Source of the DNA: Thermincola carboxydiphila
GTDB lineage: Bacteria > Bacillota > Thermincolia > Thermincolales > UBA2595
NCBI GenBank assembly: GCA_016841045.1
Contig: JAENZX010000026.1
Span: forward strand, 1 to 49,038
DNA length: 49,038 nucleotides
Reading direction: 5' to 3'
Translations under genes and position numbers: made by a program
The notes under the pieces: generated by a model
Seen by the model: the letters and a program-made list of their open reading frames with translations, nothing else
The model's database searches: none
What the model was told of the DNA's origin: nothing
Shown here: piece after piece, positions 17,226-37,281 of the stretch
Layout of the letters: each line of letters begins with the position of its first letter
Numbering within the stretch: position 1 is the first letter of the stretch

Positions 17226-18500
17226 TTATTTTTTATGACACGACTGGCAGGTACCGTAATTATCAAGCCGTAGAATATACTTGTTTTCTCCACTTTCGAC
17301 ATTAAATTGTTTGGTTGTACCATGAGCAAAATGGCAGGTTGAACAGACTACCGAGGTCCGTTTGTCAGTAAGTCCTTCCTTTGCTTCCAAAGCATTATAC
17401 TGCAAAGGCAAAAGACCCCAACTGCTGGGACTAAAATCTTTGGAGCCATCAGACCCAAAAATTGAGTAAACAGAACTCCCCACAGTAGTCGGGTGACGGT
17501 AAACTGCTTCACTGGTTGTCAGCCGTGAATCCCGCCCAGTTTCTCGGGCATTCCCGTCATCATAATTCAGGTGGCAGGAAGAACAGAATTCTGTGTTTCC
17601 CTTAACCATATATAACTGTTCACCGGAAACTGCTGTGGGTGTAATAGCATAAGCCTCAAAATCAATATTTATCGTCTTAAGACTCTCGGTTCTGGCATCG
17701 TCAATATAAATGTTTTTACGGAGCAGGCGGTAATTGTCATTAGTTCCGCCATGACTGACATGGCAGGATAAACATGTCAAGCTTAGAGTTTTGGAAGGGT
17801 CGCTCCCCGGAATAACTGTAGGTCCCCACCCTGGACTGCTGTCATCAGAATCATGCTTTGATGTTACTCCGTCAACAAAAGGTCCAGCCAGCGATGGAAC
17901 TGTAGCCCCACCAGCAACGGTTACCCTCCCCCCCTCTACATCATACTTACTTTGAGTAGAAGCTGTTCCGTGACACAGTTTACAGAGTTGGTAGTAGGTT
18001 GCCTGCTGAATAAGTTGCTCTTTTAGTGAGGCATGGTTACTGTGGCAGTAGCCACACATAGCAGTATTACTGTTAAAATTACCATGGCCGTACTCGTTAG
18101 TTTTGCGAGCGTTACCGGTATCAACCGGAAACACCCTTACTTCAGATACTGCCTGTATTGAACCGTCATCATGGACTACCCGGAAATAGTAGTTTTTAAA
18201 TTTAGTCAAACCTGTTTTAGTAACTGTTTTTTTCCCGGTAGCTGTCGTAATAGCACTGTCTATATTGTTATAATCGAGACCTGAACCATCACTAAGCATA
18301 CTATCAGACCAGTCTGCGTGGTAAACTCCACTGCCATAATCATCCCAGGTAAGGGTAACATCCACACTCCCGGCAGTCTCATTAGAGTAAGAAACAGATA
18401 CCGAAGGGGCTTTTACAGTGGCATAGACAGAATTAACAGCCACCAGTATCGTGAGGAAAACAAATATTAAGATGGCTATATACTTCTTCATACGCCTCAC
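17226..18500 (-). CDS. Secreted hexaheme c-type cytochrome with Fn3-like N-domain (cassette 2)
   Basis: About 424 residues: signal peptide (KKYIAILIFVFLTILVAV), Fn3-like domain, then six hemes CGYCH, CKLCH, CLSCH, CSSCH, CSTCH and CQSCHKK. Strong paralog of the cassette 3 cytochrome along its whole length, suggesting recent tandem duplication. The start is not certain: a GTG at 18500 has GAGAG seven bases upstream, an ATG at 18491 has GGTGAGG only three bases away, and the frame stays open to 18545, which would overlap the NHL stop at 18533. All options give the same mature protein. Predicted to be exported and to carry electrons outside the membrane. Confidence 0.9.
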   Translation of the reverse strand: MRRMKKYIAILIFVFLTILVAVNSVYATVKAPSVSVSYSNETAGSVDVTLTWDDYGSGVYHADWSDSMLSDGSGLDYNNIDSAITTATGKKTVTKTGLTKFKNYYFRVVHDDGSIQAVSEVRVFPVDTGNARKTNEYGHGNFNSNTAMCGYCHSNHASLKEQLIQQATYYQLCKLCHGTASTQSKYDVEGGRVTVAGGATVPSLAGPFVDGVTSKHDSDDSSPGWGPTVIPGSDPSKTLSLTCLSCHVSHGGTNDNYRLLRKNIYIDDARTESLKTINIDFEAYAITPTAVSGEQLYMVKGNTEFCSSCHLNYDDGNARETGRDSRLTTSEAVYRHPTTVGSSVYSIFGSDGSKDFSPSSWGLLPLQYNALEAKEGLTDKRTSVVCSTCHFAHGTTKQFNVESGENKYILRLDNYGTCQSCHKK

Positions 18501-18532
18501 CGCCGTTCTCTCAACCACAAAGAGTCTACAAT

Positions 18533-19522
18533 CTAGTATCCCCACACCTGAATCCTGTTGTTTCCCCAGTCAGTTATATAAATCTTTTCTTTACCATCGA
18601 TAAAAATTCCGCTGGGATAAACGAATCTGCCGTTTTCCAGTCCGTATGAACCAAAACTGAAAAGATATTTTCGTTCCTTATCAAATACGCGTATTTGACT
18701 GGAAATGGTATCAGGTATAAAAACTTCTCCCCTTGAGTTTACAGCAATACCCCGAACCATAGAAAATGGACGGTCTGAGCCCCATTTGTCAATTGCCGTA
18801 ATCTCCTTACCTGTATCATCAAAAAGCACTATACGGTTACGTCCACCTTCTGTCACCCATACCTGTCCTTTTTCATTGGCTGTAATACCGTGAGGATACT
18901 GTACACCTGTAAAGCTCCCCAGTTTAGTGCCTGTTTCAGTTATAACCAGGACCTTATGGGTAATCAGATCACCAACGTAAATTCTGCCCTTCAAATCTTT
19001 ATAAAGAGGGCCTGGTTTTTGCAACCCCAGTTTTTCATTTTCCCTATCGGCAAGGACTTTTATAAAACGTCCATCTGAAGTGAATACCTGAATACGTCCA
19101 TTCCCTGACTCTGCAACCAGAATGTTTCCTTGACTATCCTCAGTTATACCGTAAGGAAATGACATTTTTCCAGGTGCAACCCCATAACCTCCAAAGGAAA
19201 AAGCAAAAGAACCAGTAGGATTAAAAACTTCAACCGTATGGCCTTCGGTATTTGCAATATAAATTAGTCCTTTTTCAGTGACATATATTGCCATAGGAGC
19301 TTTTAATAAACTTTCCTTTGAACCATAAATGTTAAATAAAAATCTCGGCTTCTTGTTTAAAGCAAAACTTAAAGTTCCTACCGGGCCTTCGCCAAGTTTT
19401 TGGTATCGAAAATAAAATAGAAACCCAGCTGCAATCATAAGGATTATTAGGATAATCAGTATCAGGTTCATAACAGAAATTGTTTTCTCTTGTCGTCTGT
19501 CTGCAGTATAATATCTATTCAT
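18533..19522 (-). CDS. Membrane-anchored NHL-repeat beta-propeller protein (cassette 2)
   Basis: A 329-residue protein with one N-terminal transmembrane helix (LILIILIILMIAAGFLFYF) and about six NHL blades, including ILVAESGNGRIQVF, VWVTEGGRNRIVLF and IYITDWGNNRIQVWGY. It is the closest match to the cassette 3 copy; the phrases RGLAAD/RGIAVN, FSLGQQG/FSFGSYG and YPNGIF/YPSGIF occur at equal places. ATG at 19522 has AAGGTGG ten bases upstream. It follows the TPR gene by 38 bases and touches the downstream hexaheme frame. No enzyme motif is seen; a scaffold or docking function is inferred. Confidence 0.9.
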   Translation of the reverse strand: MNRYYTADRRQEKTISVMNLILIILIILMIAAGFLFYFRYQKLGEGPVGTLSFALNKKPRFLFNIYGSKESLLKAPMAIYVTEKGLIYIANTEGHTVEVFNPTGSFAFSFGGYGVAPGKMSFPYGITEDSQGNILVAESGNGRIQVFTSDGRFIKVLADRENEKLGLQKPGPLYKDLKGRIYVGDLITHKVLVITETGTKLGSFTGVQYPHGITANEKGQVWVTEGGRNRIVLFDDTGKEITAIDKWGSDRPFSMVRGIAVNSRGEVFIPDTISSQIRVFDKERKYLFSFGSYGLENGRFVYPSGIFIDGKEKIYITDWGNNRIQVWGY

Positions 19523-19560
19523 TGAAACGGCACACCACCTTTTGCCGGTTTCAGAGTTTT

Positions 19561-20286
19561 TTATTTTCTATTCTGCTTGCCGAATTGTTTTTTGAGTTGA
19601 CTGTCTATTTCCTGTAAGGCTTTATTAGCTTCGGAAGGATTTTGTCCCAATTTCACAGCTTTTTCGAGGGGTATTCTGGCATTTTGATATTGCCCCAGCT
19701 TAAAATAAGCCATCCCCAAATAAAAGCTTGCTGGTCCTGAACCGGAATCTACCTCTGCAGCCACTTTAAGATTTTTTGCAGCTTTTGCATAATCACCGGT
19801 TTTAAAATAAGCTATGCCAAGATTGTAATAAAGTAACCTTGGCTGAAAAACCGGATTAAAACTCACCACTTTTTCGAGAAGCGGTATTGCATTCTGATAA
19901 TCCTTCATATCTACTTTAATTAGACCCATGTACAACAAAGCAGATGTATTTTGTGGATCCTGCTTCAGTATGGATTTATATGTATTAAAGGCATCCCCCG
20001 TTTTTCCCTGGAGATACTGGGAGACAGCCAAGTCAAGCTTTGTATTAATATCGGCTGGATTCAGACTCAGCTTATCTTGTAATAAATCATTACTAAATTG
20101 ATATACGTCACGTCTTTCTGTTTTCAGCCAGTCGCTGGCAAACAAATAATAAGCACCGGCACTGATAATTAAAGTGAAAATAATTACTAGAGTAAACGCT
20201 TTCCCCTTTCCAATTCTGATTTCAGAGAGCATAAGGTTCAACTCCGTAATATATTTTAATTGCGCAGATTGAGAAAAGCTGCTCAT
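19561..20286 (-). CDS. Membrane-anchored TPR protein (cassette 2, first gene of a transcript)
   Basis: A 241-residue single-pass protein: short cytoplasmic tail, transmembrane helix (AFTLVIIFTLIISAGAYYLF, about 33-53), then three to four TPR units (ALLYMGLIKVDMKDYQNA, LYYNLGIAYFKTGDYAKA, ASFYLGMAYFKLGQYQNA). It is homologous to the other two cassette TPR proteins by anchor position and repeats. An AT-rich upstream region with a TATAAT box and a terminator further up (20458-20490) suggest that transcription of cassettes 2 and 3 and the giant cytochrome starts here. The ribosome site before ATG 20286 is weak; an ATG at codon 20 of this frame is an alternative but would shorten the cytoplasmic tail. 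Confidence 0.85.
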   Translation of the reverse strand: MSSFSQSAQLKYITELNLMLSEIRIGKGKAFTLVIIFTLIISAGAYYLFASDWLKTERRDVYQFSNDLLQDKLSLNPADINTKLDLAVSQYLQGKTGDAFNTYKSILKQDPQNTSALLYMGLIKVDMKDYQNAIPLLEKVVSFNPVFQPRLLYYNLGIAYFKTGDYAKAAKNLKVAAEVDSGSGPASFYLGMAYFKLGQYQNARIPLEKAVKLGQNPSEANKALQEIDSQLKKQFGKQNRK

Positions 20287-20370
20287 CCTATATATATATT
20301 AGATACTTAAGCCAATTTCCCTCTAAAACAGATATTTTTTCACATCTTATTTATACATCTATACATATAT

Positions 20371-20376
20371 ATTATA
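20371..20376 (-). promoter_or_regulatory. Candidate -10 box for the cassette 2-3 transcript
   Basis: TATAAT on the minus strand, 85 bases before the TPR start and just after the terminator of the previous unit. No good -35 box is visible at 17 bases, so the call rests mainly on the -10 match in a very AT-rich stretch. Confidence 0.35.
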
Positions 20377-20457
20377 ATTTAAAAAAATACTTTTTGGAAT
20401 ACCTTTTATTAGCAATCACTACTACTTAGGCCAAATTAAACAAAGTAAAATTCGTTG

Positions 20458-20490
20458 AAAAAGGGCCAGAAGTTCAATCCCGGCCCTTTA
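20458..20490 (-). terminator. Rho-independent terminator after hexaheme gene of cassette 1
   Basis: Stem AAGGGCC/GGCCCTT with a run of T on the minus-strand side (CCCTTTTT), about 19 bases past the stop at 20509. It separates cassette 1 from cassettes 2 and 3. Confidence 0.8.
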
Positions 20491-20508
20491 ATATTCCTGA
20501 TACCCATT

Positions 20509-21582
20509 TTACCAACCGGTATCGTAATTTCCGTTATACTTGTTAAATTCAGCAGAGCCGTGACATTTAACACAGACTTCACGCTCAGGTAGTCTGAGCA
20601 GCGCACTCTGATTCGCATCATACACGTAACTGGAAACCGAGTTGTACGTCTTAAAACGCGGAAAGCCAACACTTACATTAACTGAACTTCCATGAGCTCG
20701 ATGACATGTCATACAATTAATTCTCCACTGCAGCATGCCGGTTCCAGTCCCTTTTGTATCGGTAGGCATCGGTAATCCAAAGCCAAGGTCAGTTGAAAAT
20801 ATCTGTTCATAAACAGCTACCCCAACCTTGTGCATATACTTAAACTCAGGTGGCGCCATACCGTTACTTGTGCTAGTTGACCCTGTCCTGATATCACCTT
20901 CTGTATTGAACATAGAATGGCAGCCTCCACACCATTCATTAAACCCGGCTCCATACGCCAGAGGCAAATTTGTTTGTCCATAATCAATGGACATATAAAC
21001 ATACCTTGGTACACCATCAAGAAGTGTCTTTTTGAGAAGTCTCGGATTTCGGTATGGCGTTTTTGGATACTGACCGCCGCTATGTGGATCATGACAGGAA
21101 CTACACTTGAAGGTGCCAGTCCAACTAGCTCCTCCCGGTATATCACCGTCCTCCAGCTGAGATAACTGCCCCAAGCGAAGTGCTTTTTCAATACTATGTA
21201 CCGAAGTGTTATCGTAGACCTTATTTGCTATGTAAGATCTACTGGGATCAATACTCTTTTCAAAGCCGCCTGCATATGAAGGCCTTGAGACCCCACCTTG
21301 CCCGACTATCATTCCAACTTCAACATCATATCCGCTTGTAGCAGCCCTACCCTCCCCGTGACAGTAATAACACAAGTCTGTTTCGGTAGGTCCTAACGCA
21401 AGCAGATTATCCGCCTGAGCAAAATGAACTACATGACAGGAACTACAACTCTCGGAATTTGAGGTAAACTCGCCATGGAAATACACTGACGCAAAAACAG
21501 GGGTGCGGCCGGAAAGAAGATTAAGTGCCAACAGCATTCCTACTAGTACCAACATAGTTGCAAAGCATTTTGAAAACCTCAT
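20509..21582 (-). CDS. Secreted hexaheme c-type cytochrome without Fn3 domain (cassette 1)
   Basis: A 357-residue protein: signal peptide (residues 8-31), then directly the heme domain with CSSCH, CYYCH, CSSCH, CGGCH, CMTCH and CVKCH. It matches the other two hexaheme proteins in layout (HGEF-S..S-SCSSCH entry, YDVEVGMI after heme 2, CHDPHSGG at heme 3) but lacks their Fn3-like N-domain and the final CHKK, so it is the most diverged copy. ATG at 21582 follows GGCGGTGG. It ends a unit headed by the 17-heme cytochrome, followed by a strong terminator. Probably the wall-zone electron carrier of cassette 1. Confidence 0.9.
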   Translation of the reverse strand: MRFSKCFATMLVLVGMLLALNLLSGRTPVFASVYFHGEFTSNSESCSSCHVVHFAQADNLLALGPTETDLCYYCHGEGRAATSGYDVEVGMIVGQGGVSRPSYAGGFEKSIDPSRSYIANKVYDNTSVHSIEKALRLGQLSQLEDGDIPGGASWTGTFKCSSCHDPHSGGQYPKTPYRNPRLLKKTLLDGVPRYVYMSIDYGQTNLPLAYGAGFNEWCGGCHSMFNTEGDIRTGSTSTSNGMAPPEFKYMHKVGVAVYEQIFSTDLGFGLPMPTDTKGTGTGMLQWRINCMTCHRAHGSSVNVSVGFPRFKTYNSVSSYVYDANQSALLRLPEREVCVKCHGSAEFNKYNGNYDTGW

Positions 21583-21626
21583 TTCACCACCGCCTTTGCC
21601 GAAATATCATAAAAATTAATTAACTA

Positions 21627-22619
21627 TTAAATCTCGTATACCAACACTCGTGACTTACCAAACTCAGTTACATAAAGGCGCCCTCTATTATCTATAAATA
21701 CCGAAGTGGGTAGATTAATTGTATCATTTACCCTTGAATTCCAATTTTGAGGTTCCGCATTTCTAAACCTACGGGTTACCGATCCTTCTCTGTTTGTTAT
21801 TGAGATAGAATTAATAAGCCCTTCCGCAGTAAAAAGGTTTCCCTCACCGTCAAACGCAATTCCCCGAGGTACGGAGTATTTCCCTTCCCCCAAAAGGTCA
21901 TGTCCGGTTAAAATTTGAATTAACAGTCCTTGCGAACTAAACACCTGTATCCTATTGTTGTTGGAATCGGCAACATAAACTTTGTTATCATCTGTAACAT
22001 AAATAGAGTATGGATAATAAAACTCACCAGGAGCCATGCCTTTCCCACCAAAGGATCTTATCTTTTTGCCATTAATATCAAAAACCAGCACTTGCATTGT
22101 GCCTTTGTCCAATACAAAGAATCGCTTGTCTCTGTAAAAAATACTGCATGGTTCAATAATAAGACCTTCTGCAAAGTAGCCCGTGAACTTCCCTTTTATG
22201 TCATATACGTGAATTTTTTTTGTACCCACATCGGCCACTAATATTTTATTATCAGAAAAAGAGATGCTGACAGGGTATACAAGTTTGCCGCGGCCAGCAG
22301 TACCAAACTCCGATAAATATCTTCCTGTATAATTAAATACTGCTATCCTCCCGTTGTTCGTATCCGCCACAAAAATTTTATTATCCCTCACCACTGTGTG
22401 AGACGGACGTCTAAAATTAATACCGTTACCACCATAAATGGAGTATAAATAACGTGGCTGGCCTTTGGCAGGCACATATTCAGCTAACCAGTCCCTAGGA
22501 CTCTTTCTTGAAAAGTACCACCAACCGAAAATCAGCAGTTCCAGAAGTACAATAATTAATGCTGCATTAAGAACACGGTTCAAGGTTACCTTTTCATTCA
22601 AATCAACCAATTTTACCAC
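21627..22619 (-). CDS. Membrane-anchored NHL-repeat beta-propeller protein (cassette 1)
   Basis: About 330 residues with one transmembrane helix (VLNAALIIVLLELLIFGWWYF) and about six NHL blades (IFVADTNNGRIAVF, VYVADSNNNRIQVF, LYVTEFGKSRVLVYEI). The entry motif RYLYSIYGGNGINFRRP is shared with the other cassette copies, but the last blade ends VLVYEI rather than IQVWGY, in keeping with the diverged state of cassette 1. The GTG at 22619 is used; a TTG three codons later has a better-spaced GGGGTGG. It lies between the TPR gene (47 bases) and the hexaheme gene (44 bases). Non-catalytic scaffold inferred. Confidence 0.88.
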   Translation of the reverse strand: MVKLVDLNEKVTLNRVLNAALIIVLLELLIFGWWYFSRKSPRDWLAEYVPAKGQPRYLYSIYGGNGINFRRPSHTVVRDNKIFVADTNNGRIAVFNYTGRYLSEFGTAGRGKLVYPVSISFSDNKILVADVGTKKIHVYDIKGKFTGYFAEGLIIEPCSIFYRDKRFFVLDKGTMQVLVFDINGKKIRSFGGKGMAPGEFYYPYSIYVTDDNKVYVADSNNNRIQVFSSQGLLIQILTGHDLLGEGKYSVPRGIAFDGEGNLFTAEGLINSISITNREGSVTRRFRNAEPQNWNSRVNDTINLPTSVFIDNRGRLYVTEFGKSRVLVYEI

Positions 22620-22666
22620 CCCGAACGATACCGGAGTTTGTACACCTCCCGCTTATTAAGGATTTA

Positions 22667-23314
22667 TTATTTAGTATCCAGCGATTTTTTCAGATTAATA
22701 GCATCCTGATAACCAGGAACATACTTGAGCGCTATTTCAATATTCTTTAAGGCTTCATCCTTTTTTCCGGTATCAATATATATCCTGGCAAGCTCAAGGT
22801 AGACATCCGCTGACCCAGGCTTAATTTTTAGGGCCATTTGATAACTCTTTACAGCTTTATCATATTCTTTCAACTTTTGATACGCAAGTCCTAAATTACA
22901 TTGGCCGAGAAAATGAAACGGAAATTCTTTAACAAGTGGTTCAAGAATATCTACCGCCTTTTGGTATTGCCCAACCTCCCGGTAGCCAAACCCAAGGCCA
23001 AACCTTGCCGCCTGGCTCTGGGGGTCCAACTTGTACGCTGTCTCAAACTCCCTTAAACCCTCATTTCGCTGTCCTCTGGCAAGAAACTGAAAACCAAGTG
23101 CAACATGGGCTTCTGCATTATTGGGGTTATTTATTACAACATTGTGTATTCGTTGAAAATCAAATTCAGATTTAGTTACCGTTTCTTCTGTTTTCCAGAA
23201 AAATTTGTTTCCTATAGTGACTCCAATAGGAATTAACACAATTGCGAGTACAACTATTATTAGAAGTGCATACTTAAGTTTAATATTTCGTTCACCAATG
23301 TCAGAATGACTCAT
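22667..23314 (-). CDS. Membrane-anchored TPR protein (cassette 1)
   Basis: About 215 residues: short N-tail, transmembrane helix (YALLIIVVLAIVLIPIGVTIG), a conserved KFFWKTEE-type stretch also seen as KEWFWIENK in cassette 3, then about four TPR units ending DVYLELARIYIDTGKKDEAL. ATG at 23314 is preferred to an in-frame ATG at 23353 because GGAGG motifs lie just before it. It follows the 17-heme gene by 61 bases, so the cassette 1 transcript reads 17-heme, TPR, NHL, hexaheme. Likely extracytoplasmic protein-binding partner; assembly of the neighbouring cytochromes is a reasonable but unproven role. Confidence 0.88.
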   Translation of the reverse strand: MSHSDIGERNIKLKYALLIIVVLAIVLIPIGVTIGNKFFWKTEETVTKSEFDFQRIHNVVINNPNNAEAHVALGFQFLARGQRNEGLREFETAYKLDPQSQAARFGLGFGYREVGQYQKAVDILEPLVKEFPFHFLGQCNLGLAYQKLKEYDKAVKSYQMALKIKPGSADVYLELARIYIDTGKKDEALKNIEIALKYVPGYQDAINLKKSLDTK

Positions 23315-23375
23315 AACCTCCGCACCTCCATGCCAGGTCTTGAAACCCTGCATGTCAACTCATTTAAAAAATATT

Positions 23376-24908
23376 TTAGTTTTTCTTAAAAATCCTGACT
23401 TGTTTATTAATGGTTTCTGAGATTGGTTCCCTTTTATAATCAGGTACCTTTGTAGATATTCCAGAATCCTTATTTTCCGTTCTTGGTGGTATAAGCCTGT
23501 GAATGTCATAATTCTTTGACTGCTTAAGCTTCTTACCGTGGCACTTGAGACACAATCCGTCCTTAGGAATGAGCAGGAATTTCCTATTATTTGTCCCGTG
23601 GGGTCCATGACAACTGGCACAATGCATTTCGCCTCCATGCCAGGCATCCTTGTACTCGGTGCCTACAGGGTGATTATATCTGGCTAGTCCTATGTCCGTA
23701 TGACACGTGTTGCACAATACCTCCTGTTGCCTCCACAACAGGGGCTTCCACTCAGAACCATGCGGTACATGACAGTTTGTACAGGCTCCCAGCCCGCCCC
23801 TCCCCCTGGCTCTTGTAGCATGCTTTAGCTTTTCATATGTACTTTTAAGTCCCAAATGACAAAGATAGCAAAGTTCATTACCTGGCTTTTTTACAAGGTT
23901 TGGAGACGGAGCAACATGAGGGTCATGACATCCATCACAATGAAGCAGCCCATTCCCAACCGGGTGATGCGACGGGCTCTGGAATTCATTCTTTATTTTA
24001 AAATGACACTTATAACACAGGTCTGTTCGCGACTCAGGAAGCAGTGCAGGTTTGGCCGACGCATGCGGCAGATGACAGCTGGTACATTTTGCTTTTACAG
24101 GAGTATGGACATAACCAGTTTTAAGCCGCTCTCCCAAACCAACATGGCACGCCAGACAAAGACCATTTCCAGGGATAAGCAAAAGCTTATCACCAGGCGT
24201 TGCATGCGCACCGTGACAGTTAGTGCATTCCCCGGTATTAAAAGGCTTATGCTGAACAGGAAGATTCAGTTCGTTTTTCCTGTCGAAATGGCAGGTGTAA
24301 CAAAGCTGTTTCCCTGGCAGCTTAGTCATTCCCTTATATTTGGAAGCATGAGGAACGTGACAGTCAGAACATGCTCCTATCTCATATGGTTTATGTTGAT
24401 ACCGAAAATTATAAACTAAATCCATCTTGTGGCATGCGGTACACAATTCTTTCGGCGAAGTCCTTAGCAAATGCTGGAAGTTGGATGAATGAGGATCGTG
24501 ACAATCCACACAATGTCCCAGTTGGTAAGGCTTATGCTGATAAGAATAAGTTGCTTTATCCAACCTGTTAAAATGGCAGGTAAAACAAAGTTGGTCCAAA
24601 TCTACTACATATTCATGCCTTCCTGTTCCAACCGTATGAGGGACATGGCAGTCTCTACAGTACCAGTTCGTGAACGGAGCATGCTGGTACGGTTTAAGAA
24701 AATCCCGGCTTTTATCAGAATGGCATAAACCACAAACCTTTTTGTCGTTTTCACGGCTGGGAAGTTTCGGTTCGCCTACAGAAGTCTCCTGAAGAATATA
24801 GTGCTGCAGAATGTCGCTTATATAGCTTCGAATTGCTGGTAATGATAGCAGTACACTAAGCATAATCAGCACAGACAGACCGAAGACCAAAATCCTGTTT
24901 TGTCCCAT
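23376..24908 (-). CDS. 17-heme paired-CXXCH c-type cytochrome
   Basis: A 510-residue protein with an N-terminal signal anchor (ILVFGLSVLIMLSVLLSL) and 17 CXXCH motifs: CGLCH, CRDCH, CFTCH, CVDCH, CTACH, CSDCH, CYTCH, CTNCH, CLACH, CTSCH, CYKCH, CDGCH, CYLCH, CTNCH, CNTCH, CASCH and CLKCH. Two motif types alternate with a unit of about 45 residues: C-x-CH-x-PH-(A/G)(S/T) and (L/E)LCYTCH-type, with HKPF/HKPY between. This is the doubled-CXXCH repeat known from extracellular cytochromes. At about one heme per 30 residues it could form a long wire-like chain. No enzyme domain. It begins its own transcript after a terminator, AGGAG nine bases before ATG, and leads cassette 1. The C-tail of about 50 residues is heme-free and basic. 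Confidence 0.93.
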   Translation of the reverse strand: MGQNRILVFGLSVLIMLSVLLSLPAIRSYISDILQHYILQETSVGEPKLPSRENDKKVCGLCHSDKSRDFLKPYQHAPFTNWYCRDCHVPHTVGTGRHEYVVDLDQLCFTCHFNRLDKATYSYQHKPYQLGHCVDCHDPHSSNFQHLLRTSPKELCTACHKMDLVYNFRYQHKPYEIGACSDCHVPHASKYKGMTKLPGKQLCYTCHFDRKNELNLPVQHKPFNTGECTNCHGAHATPGDKLLLIPGNGLCLACHVGLGERLKTGYVHTPVKAKCTSCHLPHASAKPALLPESRTDLCYKCHFKIKNEFQSPSHHPVGNGLLHCDGCHDPHVAPSPNLVKKPGNELCYLCHLGLKSTYEKLKHATRARGRGGLGACTNCHVPHGSEWKPLLWRQQEVLCNTCHTDIGLARYNHPVGTEYKDAWHGGEMHCASCHGPHGTNNRKFLLIPKDGLCLKCHGKKLKQSKNYDIHRLIPPRTENKDSGISTKVPDYKREPISETINKQVRIFKKN

Positions 24909-24998
24909 TTGGGCAGGCTCCTTTCGCCGAAGTTGATATCCGGCGACTATTCAGTGATTTCCATGAGAAATAATTGGAAAACCTGTATTTCATAAAAC

Positions 24999-25004
24999 AT
25001 TATA
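24999..25004 (-). promoter_or_regulatory. Candidate -10 box for the 17-heme/cassette 1 transcript
   Basis: TATAAT on the minus strand within GTATATAATG, 91 bases before the start at 24908 and downstream of the terminator at 25138-25162. The -35 region is weak (TTTCTA at 16 bases). No riboswitch fold was recognised in the leader. Confidence 0.4.
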
Positions 25005-25137
25005 TACTAAGGCAAAAAGCTAGAAACCGCTTGACTACAGGCAGTTTACACTTTAAGGAATTCGCCGTTAATGATAAAAGTTCCTTCCTTTTCATTGTCT
25101 TTTTTTACGACATTAAGACGAGCCCGCTTTGATTAAA

Positions 25138-25162
25138 GAAGCAGGGGCTACACCCCTGCTTC
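25138..25162 (-). terminator. Rho-independent terminator after the 12-heme gene
   Basis: Perfect 10-bp stem GAAGCAGGGG/CCCCTGCTTC, 5-base loop, followed by TTT on the minus strand, 28 bases after the stop at 25190. Confidence 0.8.
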
Positions 25163-25189
25163 TAATATCACATGATTATTAAACTTAAT

Positions 25190-26275
25190 TTAAAGCTTAT
25201 TCGTATGGCACTTCGAACAATGTGTCGTGTCATGACAGTCCCAGCACCCCTCGTTAACTACACCTTTTTCTTTCACGATTTCGGGATGTATCTTTCGCCA
25301 ATCGGGCGGATGTAATTTAGAGAAGGTGGCTGCAGTCCGTGAATCTGCATTTTTGCTAAAAGAGTCTTGATTGCCATGACATTTTGCACAATAAGTCGGA
25401 ACTGCCCGTTCCTGGATTTCTGCTTTTTGTACATTATGGCAAACCACACAGCCTGAGACATCACGATTTGTGATATTTTGTTTGTGTACCATCTTCCATT
25501 CCTTGCCATGTCCGATAGGCCTGTTCTGATGACAGTCGTAACAGAATACGTTGCCCCTGGCATATCTTGCTACCTGGTCTTTCACAGGTACATCTTTAGC
25601 GTCAAGTGAATAGGAGTGGCACTTGTTGCAGTAAGCTAGGTCAGCTCTGGCCTTCTTACCATGTGTGGTCCCCCAGCCTTTTTCTTTATGATCAGAAGGA
25701 AGGCTGATACTGGTATGACAAGCCTGACACTCCTGGGTAACCTCACGTTTTATATGACACTCAAGACAGACATTCATTTTGGGCTCCGTAAATTCTGGGG
25801 ACATCTGCTGCGCTCCGAATTCAGGTGTCCACATCTTTGCTGCGACAGTTTCAGTAACTTTACGGGCGGCAATATTACCATGGCCAACGCCACTATGACA
25901 ATTCATACATAAAACATTTTTTGCCGCATGTTTGTTATGAGGTACAATTAAGTCTCCCGAAGGAGTAATCTCTCTTCGGCTTGAATGGCATTTGTTGCAG
26001 ACATCGTTACCGATCAATTCATCCATCTTAACTGGGCCTTTTTTGCCAGACATAAGAGATGAGAGAAGTTTCTTAGCTGCATGGCAGTCCACACAGGCAA
26101 CTTGCAGGTGTGATGATGCTTTCCAGGTCGCAAACTCCGGCTTCATAAGATGACATGAAGCACAAAACTCTGGGTTTTTGACAATACGGGAAACACCAAA
26201 AGTACCCAACAGCACAGCAAATATTAATCCGCTGACTAAAATAAGCACTTTATACCGAGTGACGGTTGATGCCAT
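25190..26275 (-). CDS. NapC/NirT-like 12-heme membrane cytochrome c
   Basis: A 361-residue protein with one N-terminal transmembrane helix (residues 9-29) right before the first heme, the layout of NapC/NirT/NrfH quinol dehydrogenases. Motifs: CASCH with MKPEF-TWK-SSH, CVDCH, CNKCH, CMNCH, CLECH, CQACH, CNKCH, CYDCH, CVVCH, CAKCH, CWDCH and CSKCH. Classic NapC/NrfH carry four hemes; the eight extra motifs make this an extended form, possibly a fused quinol dehydrogenase and electron-storage domain. It follows its 10-heme paralog by 108 bases and ends at a terminator. Inferred role: takes electrons from menaquinol and passes them to the extracytoplasmic cytochromes. Confidence 0.92.
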   Translation of the reverse strand: MASTVTRYKVLILVSGLIFAVLLGTFGVSRIVKNPEFCASCHLMKPEFATWKASSHLQVACVDCHAAKKLLSSLMSGKKGPVKMDELIGNDVCNKCHSSRREITPSGDLIVPHNKHAAKNVLCMNCHSGVGHGNIAARKVTETVAAKMWTPEFGAQQMSPEFTEPKMNVCLECHIKREVTQECQACHTSISLPSDHKEKGWGTTHGKKARADLAYCNKCHSYSLDAKDVPVKDQVARYARGNVFCYDCHQNRPIGHGKEWKMVHKQNITNRDVSGCVVCHNVQKAEIQERAVPTYCAKCHGNQDSFSKNADSRTAATFSKLHPPDWRKIHPEIVKEKGVVNEGCWDCHDTTHCSKCHTNKL

Positions 26276-26383
26276 AGCTTATTGTCTCCTCCCCGTGGCG
26301 CTTATGTCAAACAGACACAGTGCACCACAGTACCAAAAGATTGCCCATTTAAAAGAATTCGAATATCGGTAATGGGTAACTAA

Positions 26384-27451
26384 TTATTTAAACCAGTGAC
26401 AGTTGTTGCAGGCTACTTCTTTAGCAGGTGATTTAAGTGGTGCTCCATCAGACTTCTGGATGCTGTGACAAGCAGCACAGTTATTCATTCCTTTACTTGC
26501 TACAGCATTTCTGTGATTCGGCATCCAAACATTCTTATCTTGGTGATCCTTGGGTTTTTTACTGTGGCAATTAATACAGAATTGGTTGCTCCAGGCAAAA
26601 TCTTTAGCCTGAGGACTTACTTTTACAGTATTATTCTTCACACCGTCAGATTTCAAATTCGGGGAAATCCCTATAGCGTGACAGCTTGCACAAGCTTTAA
26701 CGTCTTTAGCAGCATCTTTACCATGGGATCCAAGCCAGGCAGCAGCAGCATGTGACTTAGGTGTAAAGATACTCTTATGGCAGGCCTCACAGGCCCAGGT
26801 CACACTAGTGACACCTTCAACACCGTACTTGGCAGGTGTTATGTGACAGTCAACACAGACATCCATATCAGGTCTGACAAACTCTTTGCTCATGTTCTTA
26901 ACACCATCTGCCGGAGACCATGCGCCAAGGTCGTCGCCTTTTTTAATTACGTTCCGGCTGGCAATATTTCCGTGCGCAACACCCGAATGGCATTTAACAC
27001 ATGCCACGCCTTTTTCACCATGTCTTTCGTGAGGCACTATCAAGTCACCTGATAGAGTAAAGTTTCGGGTTTTTACCGAATGGCACTTTTCACATTGCTC
27101 ATTAGGTAACTCATGCTTCATCTTAATAGGCATTTCTTCCTCATAATGACCACTAAGATAGGCATATAGATGTTTTGTAGCCATTACTTTCTCAATTAAG
27201 ATATTAACGACTCCTTCTTCCATGTGACACTCAACGCAGGAAATGTTGCTGTGGGATGAAGCTTCCCATGTTACGTACTCAGGCTGCATAGCCTCATGAC
27301 ATAACTTGCAGAAACTTGGTGACATGGTCAGTGAAATACCTCCGACGGTAGCCACCAACAGAAAAAGCAGTGTTCCGCTGGCCAGAATAAATAGCTTAAG
27401 CTTGTCTTCAGTTTTCGACAGGTCAAATTTGAATTTGTCGCGTAAACCCAT
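26384..27451 (-). CDS. NapC/NirT-like 10-heme membrane cytochrome c
   Basis: A 355-residue paralog of the 12-heme protein. Transmembrane helix at about 19-41 (LFILASGTLLFLLVATVGGISL), then CKLCH with MQPEYVTWEASSH, CVECH, CEKCH, CVKCH, CVDCH, CEACH, CASCH, CINCH, CAACH and CNNCHWFK at the very end. Shared stretches with the 12-heme copy include SGDLIVPH-(K/R)H and GVAHGNIASR/GVGHGNIAAR. It lacks the final two heme sites of its neighbour. ATG follows GAGGAGG. It is the first cytochrome gene of the locus and lies just after a polyprenyl diphosphate synthase gene, fitting a menaquinol oxidation role; that function is inferred from family layout. Confidence 0.92.
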   Translation of the reverse strand: MGLRDKFKFDLSKTEDKLKLFILASGTLLFLLVATVGGISLTMSPSFCKLCHEAMQPEYVTWEASSHSNISCVECHMEEGVVNILIEKVMATKHLYAYLSGHYEEEMPIKMKHELPNEQCEKCHSVKTRNFTLSGDLIVPHERHGEKGVACVKCHSGVAHGNIASRNVIKKGDDLGAWSPADGVKNMSKEFVRPDMDVCVDCHITPAKYGVEGVTSVTWACEACHKSIFTPKSHAAAAWLGSHGKDAAKDVKACASCHAIGISPNLKSDGVKNNTVKVSPQAKDFAWSNQFCINCHSKKPKDHQDKNVWMPNHRNAVASKGMNNCAACHSIQKSDGAPLKSPAKEVACNNCHWFK

Positions 27452-28861: not shown

Positions 28862-28958
28862 GGGAGCGGATTGGGCCTGGTGGCTCGCCTGGTCTTCAAA
28901 ACCATTGACGGGCAGTGATCCTGTCCGTGGTGGGTTCGATTCCCACACGTTCCCGCCA
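28862..28958 (+). tRNA. selC: tRNA-Sec (anticodon UCA)
   Basis: A 97-base tRNA including an encoded CCA. The anticodon loop CTTCAAA carries TCA, reading UGA. The features of selenocysteine tRNA are present: a long extra arm with an 8-bp stem (ACGGGCAG/CTGTCCGT), an extended acceptor stem (GGGAGCGG/ACGTTCCC, last pair imperfect), G discriminator and a GTGGG/CCCAC T-stem with TTCGATT loop. It shows that the organism inserts selenocysteine. The partner genes selA, selB and selD are not in the window; selC stands alone with its own promoter and terminator. A probable selenoprotein gene lies at 35598-36191. Confidence 0.96.
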
Positions 28959-34170: not shown

Positions 34171-34251
34171 AACCATCATATATTTAGCTTTTTCCTTAAT
34201 TTTTTACAAGGTGAGAATTTTTCTTGTGAGTATAGTTAGCGGAGGCTTTTG

Positions 34252-35319
34252 ATGAGAAGAGTATATCTTGACGAAAAACTAATAGGACTCAGACTCGGAA
34301 AACCCATTATAGGAATTAATGGGCACATGCTTCTTGGTAAGGGAACTGAATTAACGAAACATTTTATTAAACGTCTTAAATCTTTGGGATATACCCAAGT
34401 ATATGTTGAAGATGGCTTAATTGACGACAGTACTCCCGATGAATTAATTTCAAACGCAACCAGAGTACAAATTGCGTCAAGCATCAGTGAAATCACTGCA
34501 AACTTTAGGCTGACTAATAAACTGAATGTGATTAAATTTAATAATGTAATGCACACTATATTAACTAATGTCCTGAATAACAAACGCATGTTGGCCAGTC
34601 TGACAGATATCCGAACTTCCGACCCTAACGATTTTCTCTTTAACCATTCTATAAATGTTTCTGCTTTATCTGTCCTAATAGGTATCCATCTCTACTATTC
34701 TGATCAAAAGCTCTTTGAACTAGGCATGGGCGTATTGCTTCATGACATAGGTAAAGTTGCACTTCCGGATAAGTTTCTAAGTGTTTCCTTCAATGAACTC
34801 ACTTCAGAAGAACAGGAGATCTACCGTCAGCACACATGGAACGGATATCATATTCTTCGGGCTAATCCGGAAATCAAACTGGTCTCAGCGGCAATTGCTC
34901 TTCAACACCACGAGCGCTTTGACGGCTCAGGGTATCCAAGGTCACTTAAAGGGACATCTATTCTTGAGTATGCCAGAATAGCATCTATCGCTGATACTTA
35001 CGATAATCTAAGTAATGATAAGGGCACTTTTAAAAGACTCCCTGCTCATAAGGTTTACCAGTATTTACAAAGCCGCTCAGGAATTGACTATGACCCTAAA
35101 ATTCTCGATAGGTTTATCCAAAAAATAGCTTTGTATCCTCAGGGCACTAAAATAATCCTCAATAACAAAAAATCCGGCTTTGTTCTGAGGCAGAACAATT
35201 CTAATAACAGCCGCCCGGTTGTCCGTTTATTCTGGCTTGAAGACAAAGAACTTGCACAGCCTGAGGAAGTGGACTTATTAAGGGAACCCTCACTATGTAT
35301 CGAAAAAGTTGTTGAATAG
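34252..35319 (+). CDS. HD-GYP domain protein (probable c-di-GMP phosphodiesterase)
   Basis: A 355-residue cytoplasmic protein, one of the few plus-strand genes. The C-terminal half is an HD-GYP domain: HDIGKVALP, H in EEQEIYRQHTWNGYHIL, QHHERFDGSGYPRSLKG with the GYP signature, and IASIADTYDNL. Such domains hydrolyse cyclic di-GMP with a di- or tri-metal site. The N-terminal 120 residues (GLRLGKPIIGINGHMLLGKG, then LIKRL-SLGY-QVYVEDGL) are a regulatory region often seen before HD-GYP, with no transmembrane segment. GGAGG lies six bases before the ATG. It has its own promoter with a tandem repeat and a strong terminator. Confidence 0.9.
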   Translation: MRRVYLDEKLIGLRLGKPIIGINGHMLLGKGTELTKHFIKRLKSLGYTQVYVEDGLIDDSTPDELISNATRVQIASSISEITANFRLTNKLNVIKFNNVMHTILTNVLNNKRMLASLTDIRTSDPNDFLFNHSINVSALSVLIGIHLYYSDQKLFELGMGVLLHDIGKVALPDKFLSVSFNELTSEEQEIYRQHTWNGYHILRANPEIKLVSAAIALQHHERFDGSGYPRSLKGTSILEYARIASIADTYDNLSNDKGTFKRLPAHKVYQYLQSRSGIDYDPKILDRFIQKIALYPQGTKIILNNKKSGFVLRQNNSNNSRPVVRLFWLEDKELAQPEEVDLLREPSLCIEKVVE

Positions 35320-35320
35320 A

Positions 35321-35353
35321 AACGCGTGACCAGTGCTAGGTCACGCGTTTTTT
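35321..35353 (+). terminator. Terminator of the HD-GYP gene, shared with ferredoxin gene
   Basis: Perfect 11-bp stem AACGCGTGACC/GGTCACGCGTT, 7-base loop, then TTTT on the plus strand. It lies between convergent genes. Confidence 0.88.
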
Positions 35354-35364
35354 GCAAAAAGTAC

Positions 35365-35556
35365 TTATTCCTCTTCTTTAATAGCCGCCGTAGGACATGC
35401 TTCTACAGCTTCATGGGCAAGAGATTGCTGTTCACCGGGCACTTCTTTGGATTTTGCAACAGCCTTGTCGTCATCGCCCCATTCAAAAATTTCAGGACAA
35501 ATAGATATACACTGACCACAAGAAATACAAAGATCATCAAAAACTTCTACTTCCAT
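35365..35556 (-). CDS. Mono-cluster [4Fe-4S] ferredoxin
   Basis: A 63-residue acidic electron carrier. Cysteines in CISCGQCISICPEIF and ACPTAAI give the single-cluster ferredoxin pattern known from Desulfovibrio and Thermotoga; the second half lacks a full second motif set. AGGAGTG precedes the ATG. It lies 41 bases downstream of the putative selenoprotein gene and may be co-transcribed with it, which suggests a redox context for that protein. Confidence 0.93.
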   Translation of the reverse strand: MEVEVFDDLCISCGQCISICPEIFEWGDDDKAVAKSKEVPGEQQSLAHEAVEACPTAAIKEEE

Positions 35557-35597: not shown

Positions 35598-36191
35598 TTA
35601 TGGACTTTCTTCTTGAGAATTATTCAGCCTGTCCCCTACGCTACCCAGAAACTTTCTCACTCCGGGAAATATGATAATTTCCTGAATTGAATCTTTAAAT
35701 TCCTCACCCATCGGCGTGTCACTTACATAAGTAAGTTCAAACTGGTCCTTTGCAGACACAAATTCTACTGTGTTCACTTGAGCAAACCCTTCCAGAGTCT
35801 GCCTAACCCTAGTCACTCACCCTCCACACAGCAATCCTGTTACGTTTATTAAAGCCCGGCGTTCCCCAGGCTTTATTTCAACATCTGAAAAGACCGCCAC
35901 TTCCGGGGTAACCATTATATTTTTTACGGTTGGTCCACCACAGCTTTCCTGACCTTTCTTCGCAGCAGTTTGTGCCGGACAGGACCTGCATGAACTTTCT
36001 AAGGCCTTAGAAGCTGCTACGAAAGGCATGCTCACGAAATCTTCGGCAACATCAACCATTTGTTTAGCGCTGGTGTTCTTATCATCCACCAATTGACGTA
36101 TGGCCTTAAATGGAAGCTGCGCCAGTGACTGATTGAGTTTTAAGCCCTCCTTGATAATATCAAACAACTGTTTCACCACCCTGAAAAGCAA
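35598..36191 (-). CDS. Putative selenoprotein: HMA-like metal-binding domain with CGGU motif
   Basis: Two frames in the same phase are separated only by a TGA at 35817-35819; read as selenocysteine they give about 197 residues. The first part has a helical N-region and a cysteine-rich stretch (CRSCP, ESCGGP). Then LINVTGLLCGG-U-VTRVRQTLEGF follows the heavy-metal-associated (HMA) domain pattern: strand, G-x-x-CxxC, helix. Here the second cysteine is replaced by UGA. The codons after UGA continue the expected helix and strands (VNTVEFVSAKDQFELTYV). A bSECIS-like hairpin lies 22 bases after the UGA, and selC is in the same window. The start is uncertain (TTG 36191, GTG 36179 or 36176). Alternative: stop at TGA with reinitiation at GTG 35816, which has GGAGG nearby, but this would cut the domain at its metal-binding loop. 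Likely metal or redox role; not verified against known selenoproteins. Confidence 0.75.
35781..35819 (-). promoter_or_regulatory. Candidate bSECIS element with UGA (Sec) codon
   Basis: UGA at 35817-35819; hairpin at 35803-35781 with 9 pairs GGCAGACTC/GGGTTTGCT (three G-U) and loop UGGAA. The loop begins 22 bases after UGA and has G at its second position, within the usual limits for bacterial SECIS elements. Confidence 0.65.
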
Positions 36192-36270: not shown

Positions 36271-37281
36271 TTACTCTTCCAGATTACCAACAGCATTTCT
36301 AAGCAATTTTCTAATAGGAAGCTGATAAGGACACTTTTCCTCACATTCACCACATTCTATACATTCAGATGCCTTTACTTTTAGTGGTTTATATCGTTCA
36401 ACAGCCCATTGTTTCAGACCATACCGTGTCCAATATCCGTTCAGCAAAAAAACCATAGGGATGTCAATTCCCCGGGGACACGGCTGGCAATACTCGCATC
36501 TTCTGCAAAAGGTTTCCCCAAGCGTAGCTGCCTCAGCAAGAATTTCTGACATTTGGTCCTCTGTCAGAGATTCAGTTTGTTCCCCCGCCCGGACATTTTC
36601 TTTTACCTGAGCCAAAGTATCCATTCCCGGTATAACAGTAGAAAAACCTTGCTCCAGAATGTACCTGAGTGATAGGATGGTTTTTGTTATTGCTCCTCCG
36701 GCAAAGGGCTTCATGGCAATAGTTCCGATATTTAATTGCTTTGTCAACGGAATTAGTTCCACACTTCCTGAGGTTTCAACCGGGTTAAAGGGGAATTGCA
36801 CAGTATCAAATTCGCCGGTACCAATTGCTTTAACCAAAACGGCCGGTATATGCCCAGTAATGCCGATATACCCTATTTTCCCGTTCAACTGAGCCTCTTT
36901 TAAAGCCTCAAGAGCACCGCCTGGTTCAAGTACAGTCTTTAATGAAATCTCATCCTTCACGTTATGTATCTGATATAAATCAATGTAATCCAATCTCAAA
37001 GCCCTAAGGCTCCTGTCGATGTCCTGAGCCATTTCATCCTTAGTTCTGGCCATTGATTTTGTTGCTGCAATTACTTTATCTTTGTATCTAGGAAGAACTT
37101 GTCCAAACTTAATTTCACTATCAGTATAGGCTCTGGCAGTATCAATAAAGTTAACTCCCTGGGCAATAGCTTCCTCTATTATACTGACAGCTTCCTGAGC
37201 ATCGATTCTTTGAACCGGAATTCCTCCCATGCCAATGACTGAAACATTTAACCCAGTTCTGCCTAATTGACGAAATTGCAT
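36271..37281 (-). CDS. Aldo/keto reductase with C-terminal ferredoxin domain
   Basis: A 336-residue cytoplasmic enzyme. The first 240 residues form the AKR TIM barrel: GMGGIPVQRI, NFIDTARAYTDSE with catalytic Asp and Tyr, K in AATKSMARTKDE, YIDLYQIHNV. The last 100 residues carry two Fe-S motifs, CRRCEYCQPCPRGI and CIECGECEEKCPYQL, typical of the anaerobic ferredoxin-fused branch. Substrate is unknown. AAAGGAGG precedes the ATG. It lies 30 bases after the phosphoesterase gene, suggesting one transcript. Confidence 0.92.
   Translation of the reverse strand: MQFRQLGRTGLNVSVIGMGGIPVQRIDAQEAVSIIEEAIAQGVNFIDTARAYTDSEIKFGQVLPRYKDKVIAATKSMARTKDEMAQDIDRSLRALRLDYIDLYQIHNVKDEISLKTVLEPGGALEALKEAQLNGKIGYIGITGHIPAVLVKAIGTGEFDTVQFPFNPVETSGSVELIPLTKQLNIGTIAMKPFAGGAITKTILSLRYILEQGFSTVIPGMDTLAQVKENVRAGEQTESLTEDQMSEILAEAATLGETFCRRCEYCQPCPRGIDIPMVFLLNGYWTRYGLKQWAVERYKPLKVKASECIECGECEEKCPYQLPIRKLLRNAVGNLEE

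Follow-up and report, generated by a model that had tools for sequence, protein, structure and literature searches.

Does a single in-frame TGA on the minus strand of the 49,038-nucleotide stretch of DNA analysed here (the window) end one gene, or is it decoded as selenocysteine (Sec) within a longer one? Two minus-strand open reading frames, 35817-36191 and 35598-35816, have the same phase and are separated only by this TGA (35819-35817), as an earlier note on this DNA had observed. Joined, they run from a start at about 36167 to a terminal stop at 35598-35600. Translation and alignment with homologues, whose starts match, place the whole gene at 35598..36167 (minus strand) and give a protein of 189 residues in which residue 117, encoded by the TGA at 35817..35819, would be Sec. 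The alternative start, a TTG at 36191, is less likely than the TTG at 36167 because the starts of the homologues agree with the latter and because the RBS-like stretch GGGTGGTGA (36173..36181, minus strand) precedes it; similar GGTGGTGA stretches lie ahead of the homologues' starts. Annotation pipelines probably display this gene as two unrelated fragments.

The position of the TGA within the protein is informative. Its context is G111-L-L-C114-G-G-U117-V, and it coincides with the second Cys of the HMA-type CxxC motif, which bears out the placement given in the earlier note. The first residue of the pair, Cys114, is encoded by TGT at 35826..35828 (minus strand). Pfam HMA (PF00403) matched residues 107-162 of the read-through protein with 26.2 bits, above its gathering threshold of 24.8, and with the structural superposition this match delimits an HMA-like domain at residues 101-165 (35673..35867, minus strand). 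An AlphaFold2 model built on a 16-member alignment had a mean pLDDT of 76, with about 94 for the HMA part. The predicted order of elements is two N-terminal helices, a disordered linker, an extra strand (89-99), a strand, the CxxU loop, a helix, two strands, a helix and a C-terminal helix. Superposition of model residues 101-165 on ATP7B, CopZ and MerP gave Z 9.4-9.7 and an rmsd of 1.7-1.8 Å over 63-65 residues; Foldseek alone was weak, with every E-value above 0.001. In the model, a helix seems to stand in for the last HMA strand and, judged from secondary structure alone, the added strand before the domain perhaps takes the place of the lost one. The loop also departs from that of a standard HMA domain, as its second position is Sec (C/U), its spacing across the family is 2 or 3, and in the window protein Leu takes the place of the Met in the metal-loop motif MxCxxC. 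The N-terminal region, for which no Pfam or NCBIfam match was found, is modeled as helices 2-26 and 32-60 with a pLDDT of about 80 (residues 1-60, 35988..36167, minus strand).

The same codon recurs in relatives of the gene. A search of the nearest genomes found homologues with an in-frame TGA in all same-family genomes except one, a 63%-complete bin. A profile search across the phylum (398 genomes) returned strong matches (E ≤ 5e-28) in 16 genomes, all with the TGA; below these, after a wide gap, come generic HMA domains with E-values of 9e-10 or worse, nearly all of them stop-free. Class-wide searches located the gene in 9/10 genomes of the window's class, with members in four further classes, and the carriers amount to 16 genomes in five classes of one phylum, including bins of Thermincola sp., T. 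ferriacetica and HGW-Firmicutes. Plasmids were also searched, with no match. The 16 sequences fall into two architectures, a long form of about 190 residues with the N-terminal helices (9 genomes) and a short form of about 105-110 residues (7 genomes). Four short forms have a CxxxU pair (CYSLU, CYTLU and, twice, CYSVU), and all other members have CxxU.

At the Sec site, TGA occupies one alignment column in 16/16 members, and neither TAA, TAG nor a Cys codon ever occurs there, while the partner residue is Cys throughout (TGC in 12, TGT in 4). A UGA conserved without exception across the 16 genes is almost certainly genuine. In the eight closest long forms, the differences per codon position were 0.31/0.24/0.58 before the TGA and 0.26/0.19/0.56 after it; the two sides being alike, protein-level selection acts downstream of the TGA as it does upstream. 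Synonymous differences approach saturation between most of the 16 members. The earlier note had proposed a Cys orthologue in selenium-free relatives as the confirming observation. We found none among the 398 genomes of the phylum sample or in the class searches (classes of five carriers); every member has TGA, and it is ordinary HMA domains that have Cys at this position. The outcomes that the note had set against its own proposal were absent in the family as well: no homologue ends at the UGA, none is without Cys or Sec there, and the TGA is present in 16 independent assemblies. A separate protein of about 97 residues (L020 / L073, G050) has neither the HMA part nor the TGA, and its similarity to the long form is confined to the N-terminal helices (E 2e-4).

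Downstream of the TGA lies a hairpin. Its conserved stem has 7 bp (35783..35801, minus strand) and is extended to 10 bp in the window (35781-35803, minus strand); its 5-base loop, UGGAA (35790-35794), begins 22 nt after the UGA, where the earlier note had put it. Compensatory changes were present in 6/7 stem pairs across the family. Paired cells reached 85.7% compared with 75.8% in shuffles, none of 500 shuffles was as high, and slid partners performed far worse. Because the hairpin falls in coding DNA, we also constructed a null that holds the proteins fixed and draws synonymous codons at random according to the codon frequencies in flanking genes. Under this null, 96/112 paired cells were observed against 73.4 +/- 3.3 expected (0/2000 as high), and the mean MFE was -9.24 against -4.13 +/- 0.64 kcal/mol (0/500), although the members are related and these fractions are not strict probabilities. 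Codon choice at Gly127, the Gly after Leu-Glu, is GGG in 13/15 sequences, with a background GGG frequency of 0.23. The window hairpin taken alone is modestly unusual, as about 5 to 11% of synonymous versions match it, and the single-sequence fold z-score of its region is -1.75. It is the family as a whole that is decisive, and it shows the hairpin to be a SECIS-like element that is conserved and covaries.

The machinery for Sec insertion is present in the same genome, which holds tRNA-Sec, SelB and a Sec-containing SelD. The tRNA-Sec gene with a UCA anticodon, which had been noticed earlier in the window, was recovered with ARAGORN and Rfam RF01852 at 28862..28954 on the plus strand (73.9 bits). 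The selD gene (L127, G000:C30:141219-142142, minus strand) has an in-frame TGA followed by a hairpin, and this hairpin shares a GGA apical loop with that of the HMA gene. Among the 16 carriers, SelB was found in all and tRNA-Sec in 15, all but a 75%-complete bin; SelD was likewise recovered from 15 and is UGA-interrupted in those.

These observations make it highly probable, as far as sequence can tell, that the gene encodes a selenoprotein whose UGA specifies Sec. Insertion at this codon would be carried out by SelB and tRNA-Sec under the guidance of the hairpin that closely follows it, and the resulting HMA (ferredoxin-like) domain would bear a Cys-Sec pair, CxxU or in some relatives CxxxU, at the metal-binding loop of CopZ and MerP. 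The earlier proposal of Sec at the second metal or redox position of an HMA domain is thus supported by the 16/16 conservation of TGA, the hairpin, and the HMA match with superposition. To the fuller reading, that Sec is inserted at the UGA of an HMA domain in a protein of a so far uncatalogued family, we assign a probability of about 0.93.

Readthrough with another amino acid, such as Trp, has to be considered, as the inserted residue cannot be read from sequence alone. We regard it as very improbable, given that the UGA position corresponds in the alignment to an HMA metal-loop Cys, that all carriers have SelB and nearly all tRNA-Sec, and that the hairpin sits at the usual place of a bacterial SECIS and has its apical loop in common with that of selD. 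Moreover, UGA is an ordinary stop in the carrier genomes, where it accounts for 0.20 of the stops of long ORFs. Equally hard to sustain is a reading as two separate genes, in which the first frame ends at the TGA and a second protein re-initiates right after it. The window codon that follows the TGA is GTG, a possible start, but GTG occurs here in only 4/16 members, the window included; the rest have GTT, GTC or GTA, and it is the Val that is invariant. Two genes would also cut the HMA domain through its metal loop, with loss of helix and strands, and would leave the hairpin and a TGA that is never TAA or TAG without a reason. That the TGA reflects a nonsense mutation, a pseudogene or a sequencing error is scarcely credible: gene finders would indeed give two broken ORFs, but for the family this is refuted by a codon identical in all the independent assemblies and by purifying selection on both sides.

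How new is Sec insertion at this site? The suggestion in the earlier note that an HMA domain with Sec might not have been described before proved wrong. A 2026 inventory lists 119 prokaryotic selenoprotein families, among them a UxxU HMA-type metal-binding protein (NF041115) and a UxxC cation-transporting ATPase (PMC13188914), and NCBIfam holds both NF041115 (UxxU metal-binding selenoprotein) and NF045683 (MerT/CopZ fusion-like selenoprotein). The family closest to ours is NF041115 (UxxU_metal_bind, 'putative mercuric reductase'), which likewise has an HMA-like domain with Sec in the metal loop and is the best NCBIfam match for the family as a whole (16/16 members with E<1, best 5.9e-10). The window protein scores 20.1 bits with this model, against a curated cut-off of 95. 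In NF041115 both Cys are replaced, giving two Sec, whereas only the second is replaced here and some members have a loop longer by one residue; the present family also has extra N-terminal helices and a helical C-terminus. NF045683, a heavy metal transport selenoprotein, shares the CopZ-like part and Sec, but it matched weakly (3/16 members, best E 0.046) and its MerT membrane part is absent here. The Sec-containing cation-transporting E1-E2 ATPase is a large P-type metal ATPase in which Sec comes first in the pair (PMC13188914); its UxxC motif would fall within its HMA domain. Compared with HMA metallochaperones of the CopZ, MerP and Atx1 type (PF00403), the fold and the loop position of the pair are the same, but those proteins have Cys-Cys without Sec. 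They also differ in the loop Met, which is Leu here, in the last strand, for which a helix is predicted here, and in the strand that precedes the domain here.

Two further NCBIfam models were considered and rejected. NF041239 ('CC/Se motif', also CxxU) gave no match in the scans, and NF040918 ('LPFR motif small protein') matched one member weakly (E 0.041), which the window N-terminus alone did not confirm. A CxxU/CxxxU HMA family of this architecture is not in the 119-family inventory (PMC13188914), no NCBIfam model matched it above cut-off, and no description of it was found in the literature on HMA and metallochaperone selenoproteins. The family is therefore uncatalogued in the 2026 inventory and in NCBIfam, while Sec in HMA-like domains as such is already known.

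For the function of the Cys-Sec pair, two proposals were weighed. There is an even chance, in our judgement, that a soft metal ion such as Cu(I), Hg(II) or similar is bound or passed on by the thiolate-selenolate pair, with an affinity above that of CxxC. The N-terminal helices would then anchor or dock the HMA domain. The same genome also has stop-free HMA genes, among them two in an 805-aa frame of P-type-ATPase size and, nearby, a CopZ-sized gene of 83 aa, and the selenoprotein is therefore not the sole metal-loop protein of the cell. Because of these genes, including the short CopZ-like one beside the ATPase, it would be a special-purpose protein and not an ordinary copper chaperone. Against a metal role stand the Leu in place of the loop Met and the gene surroundings: no metal transporter or mer/cop gene was found beside the selenoprotein gene, and its neighbours are Fe-S redox proteins.

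Those neighbours point to the other proposal, a redox role, in which the pair would form a selenenylsulfide, reduce a substrate and be re-reduced, in one class perhaps by an adjacent ferredoxin. A single [4Fe-4S] ferredoxin (Fer4_13 in Pfam; 35365..35556, minus strand) directly follows the gene, and such a single-cluster ferredoxin does so on the same strand in 9/9 carriers of the window's class. Upstream lies an aldo/keto reductase with a C-terminal [4Fe-4S] domain according to Pfam (36271..37281, minus strand), and a homologue is found near the gene in most relatives of that class. CxxU is, in addition, a common redox motif among known selenoproteins (PMC13188914). The disordered linker contains a second CxxC (C60/C63 in the window protein, 35982-35990, minus strand), seen in 6/9 long forms, which could serve as a partner dithiol. 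A redox role is nevertheless to be held tentatively, since the fold belongs with metal carriers rather than with thioredoxin, both the ferredoxin and the aldo/keto reductase neighbours are absent outside the window's class, and some relatives have CxxxU spacing. Similarly tentative is the composite view of a Sec-only HMA family without any Cys version, with new helical N-terminal parts, whose CxxU or CxxxU acts either as a soft-metal binder or as a ferredoxin-linked redox site.

Other features were observed around the gene and its relatives. Two unnamed small proteins flank the short-form selenoprotein in four genomes (L065 5227-5445 and 5748-6086, with equivalents in L068, L069 and L070). One has about 72 aa with HQMGxTFG..GYAMD, the other about 105 aa with LWEEMGSSTGGLIGRFIG, and neither has a Pfam or NCBIfam match. 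Their genes form an operon with the short form in one genome; in three they are on the opposite strand, the tails overlapping by about 57 bases. In the window, a perfect 11-base inverted repeat (AACGCGTGACC/GGTCACGCGTT) followed by T's occupies 35321-35349, between the ferredoxin gene and a convergent gene at 34249-35319. It looks like a terminator and is absent from a consensus terminator scan. A cluster of multihaem c-type cytochromes, interspersed with NHL-repeat and TPR proteins, extends over 17226-27451, as expected for a Thermincola-like extracellular electron transferrer.

According to the authors of deep-Sep, selenoproteins that have no Cys homologue may be removed by filtering (PMC12013277), and the present family would escape published gene finders that depend on Cys-containing homologues. 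Its recognition would add a selenoprotein family, outside the current inventory, in anaerobes related to the metal-respiring genus Thermincola. With a naturally occurring Cys-Sec pair in the metallochaperone fold that has been studied most, it would offer a direct test of selenium versus sulfur in soft-metal binding or redox.
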